Assembly (NCBI RefSeq): GCF_024168485.1 | Contig: NZ_JALJVY010000004.1 | Coordinates: 124,001 to 188,000, forward strand | Direction: 5' to 3' | DNA: 64,000 nucleotides | Source of the DNA: Sphingobium sp. OAS761 | Lineage (GTDB): Bacteria; Pseudomonadota; Alphaproteobacteria; Sphingomonadales; Sphingomonadaceae | Shown: positions 10,218-33,466 of the stretch, piece after piece | Layout of the letters: every line of letters starts with the position of its first letter | How positions within the stretch are numbered: the first letter of the stretch is position 1 | Made by a program: the position numbers and the translations under genes | Notes under the pieces: model-generated | What the model was told of the DNA's origin: nothing | Databases searched by the model: none | The model's input: only the letters and a program-made list of their open reading frames with translations

Positions 10218-10262
10218 TTCGCAAATGCGAATTTGCCAATTTGCAAATCACGACTTCGCAAA
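10218..10262. promoter_or_regulatory. Cluster of PccR/ScfR-type operator motifs between pccB and pccR
   Basis: Seen directly: the perfect palindrome TTCGCAAATGCGAA (10218-10231), immediately TTTGCC, then the self-complementary TTTGCAAA (10240-10247), and TTCGCAAA (10255-10262). TTTGCAAA is the element reported for ScfR-family PccR in Rhodobacter (recalled literature). It lies in the 121-bp divergent region between pccB (start 10154) and pccR, with the last copy just before the pccR Shine-Dalgarno. Autoregulation plus control of the operon is the natural reading. Confidence 0.75.
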
Positions 10263-17617: not shown

Positions 17618-18100
17618 TCAATCCTCGCCTTCGCCTTCCCCGGTGAGATCGAGCGCGTGCAGCGGCTGAACCGTCGAAATAGCGTGCTTGTAGACCAGCT
17701 GAACCATGCCGTCCCGTTCCAACAGCATGCAGAACAGGTCGAATGCGGCGATTTCGCCCTGGAGCATCACGCCGTTCACGAGGAACATGGTGACCGGGCT
17801 GCCGGACTTGCGCACCGCCGACAGGAAGATTTCCTGCAACAGCTTTGCCTTGCCATTACCGTCCGATGCCTTGCGGAGGTCCGTCAGGTCCATCGGCTGT
17901 GCGGGCATGACCGTGGAAATGGCATGCTTGTAGACGAGCTGCGACTGACCGTCGCGCCGGAGCAGAACCGAAAAATTGTCGAACCAGGTAATGATGCCCT
18001 GAAGCTTCACGCCCTTGACCAGGAACATGGTCACCGGGGTCTTGCTCTTGCGCAGGCTATTGAGAAAAATGTCCTGAAGATTGTTGACTTTGTCGGCCAT
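17618..18100 (-). CDS. hfq: Tandem-domain RNA chaperone Hfq (two Sm domains in one chain)
   Basis: 160 residues from the ATG at 18100 (a TTG at 18112 is an alternative start). Two complete Hfq domains are joined with an exact offset of 80 residues: [19 protein letters not shown] and [10 protein letters not shown] (56-64) in the first, [19 protein letters not shown] and [10 protein letters not shown] (136-144) in the second. Usual Hfq is about 80-100 residues. The proximal-face YKHAIS is kept in both, but the position of E. coli Lys31 is Lys32 in repeat 1 and Met112 in repeat 2, and the rim patch RKSK becomes RKSG. A ring of three chains would thus have two kinds of face. Acidic C-terminus GEGEGED. 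Confidence 0.96.
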
Positions 18101-18248
18101 GATTGTCGCCAAGTCCTATATTCTTGGCGGGACGTTACCCGCTCTCGCATCCTTAAGCAGGATGTCTTGCCCGCTTCCGCTTATCGGGAGCATCGCTATT
18201 CTACCGCAATTGCGAAGGGACGTCCATGGGCTAGCGTGTCGCCTGCGG

Positions 18249-30482: not shown

Positions 30483-30581
30483 CGCGCTTGGCGCGATGAG
30501 CAGTCGTTTGACGAGCCCCTGCGGATTCGTCACGCTCCACCGTTATCACACGCGGGGACGGACAATGGGGGGATCGTGACC

Positions 30582-31616
30582 ATGGTTGTGCCGTTGCGTT
30601 TCGTCACATGCTTGACCGGCGGCCTTCTGGCGCTCGGCGCATCCGTCGGGATAACCGGCCTGCCCGCCTGGCGGTGGCAGGGACTGCCCGGCACCGTCTC
30701 GGCGCCAGCCGTTCCCGCGGACAATCCCATGAGCGCGGTCAAGGTCGCCCTGGGCCGCCGCTTGTTCTACGATCGCGCCCTGTCCCGCGACGGCAGCATG
30801 GCCTGCGCCGACTGTCATCAACAGGCACGCGGATTCAGCGACGGGCAAACGACCCATATGGGGGTTTCGGGCGAAATCGGCATTCGCAACGTGCCCGGCC
30901 TTGCCAATGTCGCATGGCGCCCCGCGCTCACCTGGACGGAAGCCGGCATATCCAGCCTGGAGGAACAGGCCCTCATTCCCATGACCGGAACGGCGCCCGT
31001 CGAGATGGGCATGGACGGACGGGAAGCGGAACTGGTTCGCCGCATCAATGCCGATCCCTGTTACCGCCGACTTTTCGCACTGGCCTTCCCGAGAAATGGC
31101 GCGGACGCGAGCGCGGGCAAGGTCGCCATGGCGCTGGGCGCGTTTCAGCGGACGATGATCAGCTTCGATTCGCGGGCCGATAGGTACATCGGCGGCGATC
31201 GCAGCGCGCTGTCACCCATGGCGGTCAGGGGGCTGGCACAGTTCCGGACCGCCGGTTGCGCGCAGTGCCATCAGGGCCGGGATTTCACCGACGCAAAGCT
31301 CCACTATGTCGGCACCGCCGCGCCGAGCGAGGCCGACGGCAGCGGCTATGGCGGCAAGCCACCGCCTCCCGGTTTCGTGCCGCCGCCCGATAGTTTCCGG
31401 ACGCCATCGCTTCGTAACGTCGCCGTGACCGGCCCCTGGCTGCATGACGGCAAGGCGTCGACGTTGGATGAAGCCATCAGGCGGCACGCGGCGAGTCATC
31501 TGCCAGGGATCGACATGGATGCGTTGCTCGCCTTTCTCGACAGCCTGACGGATCGCGCATTTCTGACCGCCGGCCATTTGACCAAACCGTCCGCCGCCTG
31601 CCCCGTCGCGATATAA
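30582..31616 (+). CDS. Di-haem cytochrome c peroxidase/MauG-family protein
   Basis: 344 residues from the ATG at 30582, preceded by GGGGGGAT (a GTG at 30576 is an alternative). Membrane-anchor or signal helix at residues 5-28. Two haem c sites: CADCH (75-79) near the N-terminus and CAQCH in the second half, and a FRTPSLRNVAVTGPWLHDGK stretch typical of bacterial CCP/MauG. It sits in the periplasm and reduces hydrogen peroxide or oxidises protein residues. The stop codon lies inside a minus-strand terminator. Confidence 0.88.
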   Translation: MVVPLRFVTCLTGGLLALGASVGITGLPAWRWQGLPGTVSAPAVPADNPMSAVKVALGRRLFYDRALSRDGSMACADCHQQARGFSDGQTTHMGVSGEIGIRNVPGLANVAWRPALTWTEAGISSLEEQALIPMTGTAPVEMGMDGREAELVRRINADPCYRRLFALAFPRNGADASAGKVAMALGAFQRTMISFDSRADRYIGGDRSALSPMAVRGLAQFRTAGCAQCHQGRDFTDAKLHYVGTAAPSEADGSGYGGKPPPPGFVPPPDSFRTPSLRNVAVTGPWLHDGKASTLDEAIRRHAASHLPGIDMDALLAFLDSLTDRAFLTAGHLTKPSAACPVAI

Positions 31617-31643
31617 AAAAAGGCCGGTCGCATGGACCGGCCC
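31614..31643 (-). terminator. Intrinsic terminator of a minus-strand transcript
   Basis: Stem GGCCGGTC / GACCGGCC (31622-31629 with 31635-31642), 5-nt loop, followed on the minus strand by seven T. It overlaps the stop codon of the peroxidase gene on the plus strand. It could end ettA read-through or the candidate sRNA at 31614-31675. Confidence 0.85.
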
Positions 31644-31675
31644 TGAAAGTTTATAGGAGAGGATGCCTGAAAGGC
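31614..31675 (-). ncRNA. Candidate Hfq-dependent small RNA (about 62 nt)
   Basis: On the minus strand a promoter-like pair TTGCGA (31710-31705), 17 bp, CATATG (31687-31682) predicts a start near 31675. The RNA would have a small hairpin (GCCUUUCAGGC), an unpaired UCCUCUCCU (complement of a Shine-Dalgarno), and a GC stem with seven U at 31643-31614. This is the layout of an sRNA that masks ribosome-binding sites. The -35 lies within a palindrome close to that of the pccB operator. No expression data; an overlapping 22-codon plus-strand ORF is an alternative. Confidence 0.35.
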
Positions 31676-31703
31676 TCTTTCCATATGCTATGACAACGCT
31701 GCC

Positions 31704-31748
31704 TTCGCAAGTGCGAAAAGATCGCCGTTGATTGCAAAATTTGCAATC
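31704..31748. promoter_or_regulatory. Two palindromes resembling the pccB-pccR operators
   Basis: TTCGCAAGTGCGAA (31704-31717) differs by one base from TTCGCAAATGCGAA in the pccB-pccR region, and GATTGCAAAATTTGCAATC (31730-31748) shares AATTTGCAA with it. They lie in a convergent gap downstream of two genes, where an operator for a protein gene is not expected; the first overlaps the -35 of the candidate sRNA. Confidence 0.5.
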
Positions 31749-31757
31749 CGATTGAGC

Positions 31758-31778
31758 GAGGGGCGTATCCCCTCTTTT
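31758..31778 (+). terminator. Intrinsic terminator for the plus strand
   Basis: GAGGGG / CCCCTC stem with CGTAT loop followed by TTTT, 2 bp before the ettA stop codon. It ends plus-strand transcription coming from the peroxidase direction. Confidence 0.75.
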
Positions 31779-31780
31779 CG

Positions 31781-33466
31781 TCAGCGGGTCAGTTTCTTGT
31801 ATGCCAGGCGTGTCGGGCGGTCGGCCGCGTCGCCCAGCCGGCGACGCTTGTCCTCTTCATAGGCTTCGAAATTCCCTTCGAACCATTCGACATGGCTGTC
31901 GCCTTCAAACGCCAGGATGTGCGTCGCCAGACGATCCAGGAAAAAGCGATCGTGGCTGATGACCACGGCGCAACCGGCGAAATTCTCGATCGCCTCTTCG
32001 AGAGCCGCCAGCGTTTCGACGTCAAGGTCGTTGGTCGGCTCGTCGAGCAGCAGCACGTTGCCGCCGCGCTTCAGCATCTTGGCGATGTGGACGCGATTGC
32101 GCTCACCGCCGGACAGCTTGCCGACATTCTTCTGCTGGTCCTGCCCCTTGAAGTTGAAGGCGCCCACATAGGCCCGGGTCGACATGTCGTGGCCGTTGAC
32201 CTTGACGTAATCGAGGCCGTCCGAAACTTCCTCCCAGACGTTCTTCGACGCATCCAGATGGTCGCGACTCTGGTCGACATAGCCCAGGCGGACCGTCGAC
32301 CCGATGTCGATTTCACCCGAATCCGGTGTTTCCTGACCCGTTATGAGGCGAAACAGGGTCGACTTACCCGCGCCGTTGGGGCCGATGACGCCGACGATGC
32401 CGCCGGGCGGCAGCATGAAGGACAGGTCCTCGAACAGCAGCTTGTCGCCATAGGCCTTGGAAATTCCCTTGGCTTCGATCACCTTGCCGCCCAGACGCTC
32501 CGGCACCTGAATGACGATCTGCGCCTTGCCTGGCGCGCGATTTTCCTGGGACTGAACCAACTGCTCGAACTTGGCGATACGCGCCTTGGACTTGGTCTGG
32601 CGGCCCTTGGGGCCCTGTCGGATCCATTCCAGCTCGTCATTGATCGCCTTTTGCCGGCCGGTCGCTTCGCGATCTTCCTGCTCCAGACGCTTGGCCTTCT
32701 TCTCCAGATAGGTGGAGTAATTGCCTTCGTAGGGGAAATATTTGCCGCGATCGATTTCGAGGATCCAGCCCACTACATTGTCGAGGAAATAGCGGTCGTG
32801 GGTGATCATCAGCACCGCGCCGACATATTCCTTGAGGTGACTTTCCAGCCAGGTGACGCTTTCGGCGTCGAGATGGTTGGTCGGTTCGTCGAGCAGCAGG
32901 ATGTCCGGCTTCTGGATCAACAGGCGGGTCAGCGCGATACGCCGCTTTTCACCGCCCGACAGATTTTCGACCGACCAGTCCGACGGCGGACAGCGCAGCG
33001 CTTCCATCGCGATTTCCAGCTGGTTGTCGAGCGTCCAGCCATCGGCAGCGTCGATCTGTTCCTGAAGCGTGCCCATTTCCTCCATCAGCGCGTCGAAATC
33101 GACGTCTTCCGGCGGATCGGCCATGATCATGCTGATTTCGTTGAAGCGGTCCAGCTTGTCAGCCATCTCGCGCGCGCCGTCCTTGACGTTTTCAAGGACG
33201 GTCTTGGTCGGATCGAGCTGCGGTTCCTGCGGCAGGTAGCCAACGGCGATGTTCTCGCCCGGCCAGGCTTCACCGCTGAAATCCGTGTCGATGCCGGCCA
33301 TGATCTTCATCAGGGTCGACTTGCCCGCGCCGTTCGGGCCGACGATGCCGATCTTGGCACCGCGATAGAATTGCAGGTTGATCTGGTTGAGCACCGGCTT
33401 CGCCGCGCCGGGGAAGCTCTTGGTCATGCTCTTCATGACATAGGCATATTGGGATGAGGCGGACAT
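31781..33466 (-). CDS. ettA: Energy-dependent translational throttle protein EttA (ABC-F)
   Basis: 561 residues, two ABC ATPase domains without membrane segments. Walker A GPNGAGKST twice; signatures LSGGEKRR and LSGGERNR; Walker B ILLLDEPTNHLDA and VLLLDEPTNDLDV. The ABC-F P-site linker lies between them (KKAKRLEQEDREATGRQKA and QTKSKARIAKFEQL). EttA binds the ribosomal E site and gates entry into elongation with the ATP/ADP ratio. Monocistronic, with its own upstream gap of 97 bp to the divergent peptidase. Confidence 0.95.
   Translation of the reverse strand: MSASSQYAYVMKSMTKSFPGAAKPVLNQINLQFYRGAKIGIVGPNGAGKSTLMKIMAGIDTDFSGEAWPGENIAVGYLPQEPQLDPTKTVLENVKDGAREMADKLDRFNEISMIMADPPEDVDFDALMEEMGTLQEQIDAADGWTLDNQLEIAMEALRCPPSDWSVENLSGGEKRRIALTRLLIQKPDILLLDEPTNHLDAESVTWLESHLKEYVGAVLMITHDRYFLDNVVGWILEIDRGKYFPYEGNYSTYLEKKAKRLEQEDREATGRQKAINDELEWIRQGPKGRQTKSKARIAKFEQLVQSQENRAPGKAQIVIQVPERLGGKVIEAKGISKAYGDKLLFEDLSFMLPPGGIVGVIGPNGAGKSTLFRLITGQETPDSGEIDIGSTVRLGYVDQSRDHLDASKNVWEEVSDGLDYVKVNGHDMSTRAYVGAFNFKGQDQQKNVGKLSGGERNRVHIAKMLKRGGNVLLLDEPTNDLDVETLAALEEAIENFAGCAVVISHDRFFLDRLATHILAFEGDSHVEWFEGNFEAYEEDKRRRLGDAADRPTRLAYKKLTR

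Follow-up and report, generated by a model that had tools for sequence, protein, structure and literature searches.

The 164-bp gap between two convergent genes of the window, by which we mean the whole 64,000-nucleotide stretch of DNA analysed, carries one of five SuhB-type small RNAs (sRNAs) of this Sphingobium genome. As read from sequence, the RNA has a promoter of its own and lies under a two-box operator that a GcvA-like LysR regulator most likely controls in trans, a reading that we consider quite probable as a whole. The gap runs from the end of a di-haem cytochrome c peroxidase gene (CCP_MauG by Pfam; 30576-31616, plus strand), which is convergent with the sRNA, to the end of an ettA-like ABC-F gene (31781-33466, minus strand), which shares its strand with the sRNA and has its 3′ end shortly before it. 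The name ettA was taken over from an earlier sequence-only reading of this DNA; Pfam gives the ABC-F domains ABC_tran and ABC_tran_Xtn.

The sRNA, its terminator and its promoter

The Rfam model RF00519 (suhB/mmgR, alpha-r8) matched positions 31606-31682 of the minus strand with 47.9 bits against a cut-off of 41. Based on this match, on the fold and on the 61-nt SuhB of Sphingopyxis granuli TFA, which was seen by dRNA-seq and Northern blotting (PMC6563040), we place an sRNA of about 61 nt at 31615-31675 (minus strand), with a predicted 5′ end at G31675, 7 nt past the -10 element. For a 62-nt RNA the predicted fold has -23.1 kcal/mol (z = -4.86) and leaves UCCUCUCCU unpaired, and the sphingomonad-type anti-Shine-Dalgarno core GCAUCCUCUCCU (31655-31666, minus strand) is unpaired save for its first two bases. 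Fold and terminator scan together give the RF00519 architecture of a weak 5′ hairpin, an unpaired C/U-rich core and an intrinsic terminator with a T run (31620-31644, minus strand). Unlike the alpha-r8 standard with its ten-nucleotide core UUUCCUCCCU (PMC12559287), the window copy has the core AUCCUCUCCU; we nevertheless file it as a variant of the RF00519 alpha-r8 family because it reaches the score of the curated model. The identity of the sRNA is well supported. The sequence-only reading had proposed an sRNA on the minus strand that has a terminator of its own and leaves an anti-Shine-Dalgarno stretch unpaired, and the family match, the fold and the terminator scan bear this out.

The site at 31620-31644 is the sole minus-strand terminator-like site that the scan gave within 31500-31900, and therefore it probably serves ettA also. 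The same scan placed the intrinsic terminator of the peroxidase gene at 31758-31774 on the plus strand, so that the two terminators first described for this gap (minus, 31644-31620; plus, 31758-31774) were both recovered. Read-through from the peroxidase gene to its terminator (31617-31774, plus strand) would give an antisense RNA over the entire sRNA, and, as the terminator scan suggests, the tail of the peroxidase transcript is a possible sponge of the sRNA.

The core promoter (31682-31710, minus strand) consists of a -35 element TTGCGA (31705-31710) and a -10 element CATATG (31682-31687) separated by 17 bp. Its position fits the register of the sRNA family consensus, and the promoter proposed earlier at 31710-31682 stands on that register; a strict sigma-70 scan of the gap reported no promoter at 31682-31710.

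A two-box operator in fixed register

Upstream of and overlapping this promoter are two palindromic elements. Box A (31730-31748, minus strand) is the dyad GATTGCA-N5-TGCAATC, read as GATTGCAAA-A-TTTGCAATC, with a 15-bp TTGCA-N5-TGCAA of the LysR type T-N11-A and a centre at about -64. Box B, TTCGCACTTGCGAA (31704-31717, minus strand; consensus TYGCANTTG), overlaps the -35 element and is centred at about -36.

We compared the boxes across sRNA copies from several collections. The Sphingobium set comprised 105 copies of distinct sequence having the core with at most three mismatches; 30 of these rows were best BLAST hits to a query with the operator in it, and could therefore lean towards the operator. 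By neighbouring gene names, assigned by eye, the 105 copies fall into eight named locus classes and others, with ettA beside 21, the LysR gene beside 21, phosphomannomutase beside 20 and ftsK beside 14. The second set, of 106 named copies among the matches listed, was chosen by the exact sRNA core and not by the operator (of 119 copies parsed, 116 offered 160 bp of upstream sequence and a C preceding the core, and 10 duplicated members of the 105). Two copies from genomes without PccR, L303 and L318, stood outside the 106 and were scored separately. Other members of the Sphingobium set came from an RF00519 listing down to E ~1.5e-7, covering part of the genomes with 80 regions, one of them from the BLAST list; weak copies, including some of the canonical type such as L036 (described below), are therefore missing from the 105.

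Of the 105 Sphingobium copies, 103 scored at least 7/8 for box A (TTGC-N7-GCAA), with a register within 1 bp, 101 did so for box B (TYGCANTTG), and 99 for both boxes. The corresponding figures for the named copies, among the matches listed, were 96/106, 102/106 and 95/106, which leaves 6 of 105 Sphingobium and 11 of 106 named copies short on one or both boxes. Distances between the boxes were 29 or 30 bp in the Sphingobium copies and 29-31 bp in the named copies, again among the matches listed. Off-register controls gave 0-3 and shuffles at most 0.3 percent. Loci chosen by RF00519 alone behaved alike (box A 94/96, box B 92/96, both 90/96), and four hup-linked copies (E_hup) kept box A and not box B. 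A register slack of 1 bp was allowed for the sets of 105 and 106, and of 3 bp for copies from other genera and families.

Beyond these sets, we read 24 copies belonging to other genera of the same bacterial family, of which 22 reached 7/8 or better on both boxes. The two misses were L471, which has a different, canonical core TTTCCTCCCT, and L472, from genome G139, in which box B is kept and box A lost. Canonical-core copies from other families reached 7/8 on neither box, be it in L492-L495 (0/4, one box A scoring 6/8) or among L392-L421 (0/25); the remaining five of L392-L421 were four boxed copies from the same family with a GCATCC core and one locus in which no core could be located. The UUUCCUCCCU core type was found in other families, and across these genera and families it is the sphingomonad core type that accompanies both boxes, whereas the UUUCCUCCCU type does not.

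In the genome itself, five RF00519 copies score above the cut-off and all five reach at least 7/8 on both boxes. The palindromes are a trait of the sRNA family and form a two-part operator common to all five siblings; the gap is therefore expected to hold an operator although it offers no protein gene to control, since the operator belongs to the sRNA. Recurrence of the boxes at fixed register in nearly every copy, with an RF00519 score above the cut-off, confirms that the match goes beyond chance, and in this respect the original proposal of an sRNA sitting under an operator holds. A sixth RF00519 match of the genome (L036; C9:2461-2539, minus strand) scores 36.2 bits, has the core TCTCCTCCCTGAACC and, judged by eye, lacks the boxes altogether, which sets it apart from the five boxed siblings of its own genome. 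The most RF00519 matches at E 1e-4 among the 31 genomes searched, 11, were seen in the Sphingobium relative G015.

Searching the genome for the two boxes returned two further places with one mismatch (L201, C11:24179; L202, C16:76588) and three weaker places with three mismatches. The search missed two of the five siblings and is therefore not exhaustive. L201 precedes a protein of 92 residues that looks exported, and L201 and L202 are possible protein-coding targets of the same regulator.

Further elements differ from copy to copy. The spacer between -35 and -10 of the window copy holds a degenerate dyad, AGGCAGCGTTGTCA (31691-31704, minus strand; offset -31), and at the same offset the ettA-linked orthologues L002 and L012 have TGGTGGCGCTACCA and TGATACCGCTATCA, near-perfect or perfect dyads. 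The dyad may be described as LacI-like. In six Sphingomonas copies (L282, L292, L322, L329, L339 and L377), a dyad like TGATACCGGTAACA was seen by eye between box A and box B, and suggests yet another local input.

A GcvA-like LysR regulator and other candidates

At 49 of 120 named loci, among the matches listed, a LysR gene lies beside the sRNA, and it is divergent from it in 49 of 49, its start being 95-245 bp (median 163) from the sRNA core at these loci, Zymomonas among them. The other 71 of 120 showed no LysR match within the stretch examined, and in several genera the LysR gene is unlinked to the sRNA copies that were read. The Sphingobium class-B copies all have it divergent (21/21) at 176-206 bp. 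The genome analysed here has its LysR gene divergent beside the sibling on contig C3 and not at the window copy.

Co-occurrence was surveyed in 80 chosen genomes, mostly with an sRNA hit. At E 1e-50 the LysR protein was found in 30/30 Sphingobium genomes, 18/19 other genomes of the same family and 12/12 named genomes, the last including all 11 without PccR, and in 0/19 genomes from other families of the order, in 10 of which an sRNA copy was read. The survey stopped short of G089, G119, G130 and G141, four genomes of the family in which no sRNA hit was seen. The pattern follows one clade and therefore comes close to a single evolutionary event. The one tested same-family genome without the LysR gene is G139, whose copy has lost box A and kept box B; loss of box A without LysR is thus one case, and the persistence of box B there means that box B may belong to the promoter as such or be bound by another protein.

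The best named relatives of the LysR protein are GcvA proteins, and its best solved relative is GcvA 8y6u. Against the NCBIfam model for GcvA (NF008352) it scored 196.5 bits, below the cut-off of 288, and we therefore label it GcvA-like rather than file it as GcvA. Over 62 sequences, the mean share of the commonest residue was 0.88 in the first 65 residues and 0.73 in the rest; in this protein family the better conserved first 65 residues correspond to the DNA-binding part. Two features expected of a LysR-type target are present: box A is a T-N11-A dyad near -65 of the promoter, counted from the predicted start site, and at the sibling locus the regulator gene is divergent from its target. Among the titles listed in a literature search, with subscription journals mostly outside its range, none concerned a LysR regulator of SuhB, and the parts of PMC6970203 and PMC4741004 available had nothing on one.

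Alternatively, the siblings could be under some other conserved transcription factor, or under two separate ones, one per box and with, for instance, a PhaR-type repressor among them, which would make the LysR neighbour incidental. The survival of box B where LysR and box A are lost (L472) fits such an arrangement. So does a PhaR-like element, YGC-N3-GCA, which occurs at a fixed -21 in 38/105 Sphingobium copies and, among the matches listed, in 54/106 named copies, against averages of 1.3 and 6, respectively, in control stretches; at -26 it adds one Sphingobium copy and, among the matches listed, three named ones, and it is present in 19/21 LysR-linked copies of the genus. In Sinorhizobium meliloti, PhaR binds the mmgR promoter, and YGC-N3-GCA fits its motif (PMC12542648). 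However, the window copy has no such element, and neither have four of this genome's five copies or 66/105 copies of the genus, while box A is nearly universal and the divergent LysR linkage holds in 49/49. We regard control by such other factors as unlikely, if still worth keeping in mind, and prefer the GcvA-like LysR protein as the regulator.

The sequence-only reading had assigned the operator to PccR, a regulator of the ScfR family encoded in the window (PF09856; 10273-11691, plus strand), and had taken the RNA to be propionyl-CoA-responsive. Binding of the palindromes by PccR or another ScfR acyl-CoA sensor was also our first choice, as PccR is nearly universal in the genus (30/31 Sphingobium genomes, the contig of the 31st ending just past the pccB-pccR promoter) and MccR occurs in 2/31. 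The half-sites of PccR, RamB and PrpR, TTTGC(A/G)AA, are like those of the boxes, and the spacing of box A resembles the Mycobacterium tuberculosis PrpR site TTTGCAAA-N-TTTGCgAA (PMC6765138). Locally, TTCGCAAGTGCGAA at 31704-31717 differs at one position from TTCGCAAATGCGAA at 10218-10231 in the pccB-pccR gap, AATTTGCAA occurs in both regions, and of six exact places of TTYGCAHTTGCGA in the genome three are sRNA promoters and one is the pccR promoter. The near identity to the pccB-pccR palindromes is therefore real in this genome, as first noticed, but the shared 14-mer recurs in just 2/30 Sphingobium pccR promoters; conversely, A[AG]TTTGCAAA is found in 25 of those 30 promoters and in 0/105 sRNA upstream regions.

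Distribution across genomes speaks against a general role for PccR, RamB or PrpR. A site of the PccR regulon should be present only where the regulator is, yet in 11 of 37 chosen named genomes a PccR orthologue was not found, and in each of these the sRNA copy read has both boxes at 7/8 or better. PccR-like matches of 488 bits or more occur in 26 of the 37, and 9 have only weaker ScfR matches, none above 282 bits; Zymomonas mobilis and Sphingomonas aerophila gave no ScfR match at E 1e-20. The 37 are a chosen sample of unstated completeness in which two of the 11 PccR-less genomes are MAGs by title, and any single absence could therefore be a gap; the eleven absences together are hard to explain in that way. 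With both boxes kept in 11/11 PccR-less genomes and the operator tracking the LysR gene, we dropped the ScfR assignment, and with it the propionyl-CoA response: PccR is very unlikely as the general regulator, and an ScfR sensor of any kind has little chance of filling the role. By eye, the promoters of the genome's RamB-type gene and of its fourth ScfR gene have other motifs. An apparent truncated aconitase fragment was also seen by eye on contig C3 (L078:6700-7000), between prpB and the MccR-type ScfR gene.

The RNA might also be a mere 3′ untranslated tail of ettA, or a terminator by-product, with no promoter of its own. It does sit downstream of the ettA stop and ahead of the single terminator-like site found on that strand in the region, and the sigma-70 scan is silent; however, promoter region and boxes are conserved at other locus classes that have no ettA, and SuhB was detected as an RNA in Sphingopyxis (PMC6563040), so we give this explanation scarcely any credence. 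A plus-strand ORF of 22 codons, whose translation the sequence-only reading had named as grounds against an sRNA, has a good AGGAGAGG ahead of an ATG present in 104/105 Sphingobium copies, but AGGAGAGG is the complement of the sRNA core, the frame opened by that ATG varies in length between 9 codons and no stop in the 300 bp read, its peptide is not conserved across copies, and we dropped a small protein gene here as next to impossible.

Probable mode of action and relation to known systems

In model score, weak 5′ hairpin, unpaired C/U core, terminator and length of about 61 nt, the window sRNA is like the alpha-r8, SuhB and MmgR RNAs, the SuhB of Sphingopyxis granuli TFA included. Several copies per genome are also found for Caulobacter SisA-D, which, in the parts of PMC12559287 available, have no conserved upstream motif, whereas the siblings here share an operator. 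A close parallel in arrangement comes from Escherichia coli, where in the presence of glycine GcvA increases the transcription of gcvB, a divergent sRNA gene; 15-bp GcvA sites, ATTAG-n5-CTAAT, are predicted at -65 and -43 relative to the start of gcvB (PMC5002191). Here too a GcvA-like LysR gene is divergent from an sRNA with a 15-bp n5 dyad centred near -65; the half-site is TTGCA rather than ATTAG, the second box lies at about -36 rather than -43, the sRNA belongs to a different family, and one regulator probably serves many dispersed siblings. OxyR and OxyS likewise pair a LysR-type regulator with a divergent sRNA that it drives (PMC5002191); OxyR responds to oxidation, of which the sphingomonad LysR shows no sign.

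From these features we infer the following course of events. The sRNA would be transcribed leftwards from its own promoter and end at the terminator that it probably has in common with ettA. The GcvA-like LysR protein, made from its gene on contig C3, would act on the window copy in trans, probably as an activator, by binding box A and making contact with RNA polymerase via box B or beside it, and would thereby switch all siblings together. Through its unpaired UCCUCUCC, the sRNA may pair with the ribosome-binding sites of target mRNAs with the aid of Hfq and would then block them, by analogy with SuhB on thnR (PMC6563040) and with SisA (PMC12559287). Studied relatives of RF00519 act with Hfq (PMC6563040, PMC12559287). 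The window encodes a tandem Hfq, as had been said of it, in the form of two Hfq motifs that share a frame of the minus strand at about 17.6-18.1 kb (17618-18112), and this protein is a likely RNA chaperone partner of the sRNA.

In Sphingopyxis, SuhB is involved in the catabolite repression that acts on tetralin genes, and for strain TFA a review states that none of the transcriptional regulators behind carbon catabolite repression had been found (PMC6563040). The PccR case illustrates that a motif match can mislead until it is checked in genomes without the protein. If the proposal is right, SuhB-linked catabolite repression gains a candidate regulator gene, its site and the siblings that it regulates in trans, in contrast to Caulobacter, whose siblings share no promoter motif. 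It is on balance probable that one GcvA-like LysR protein, whose gene neighbours one sibling in many genera, coordinates a dispersed family of anti-Shine-Dalgarno sRNAs across the Sphingomonadaceae, with dyads that vary by copy, the PhaR-like one at -21 and the one at -31, adding local inputs between -35 and -10, which would explain the switching of SuhB-dependent repression and amount to a GcvA-GcvB-like hub with multiple siblings.
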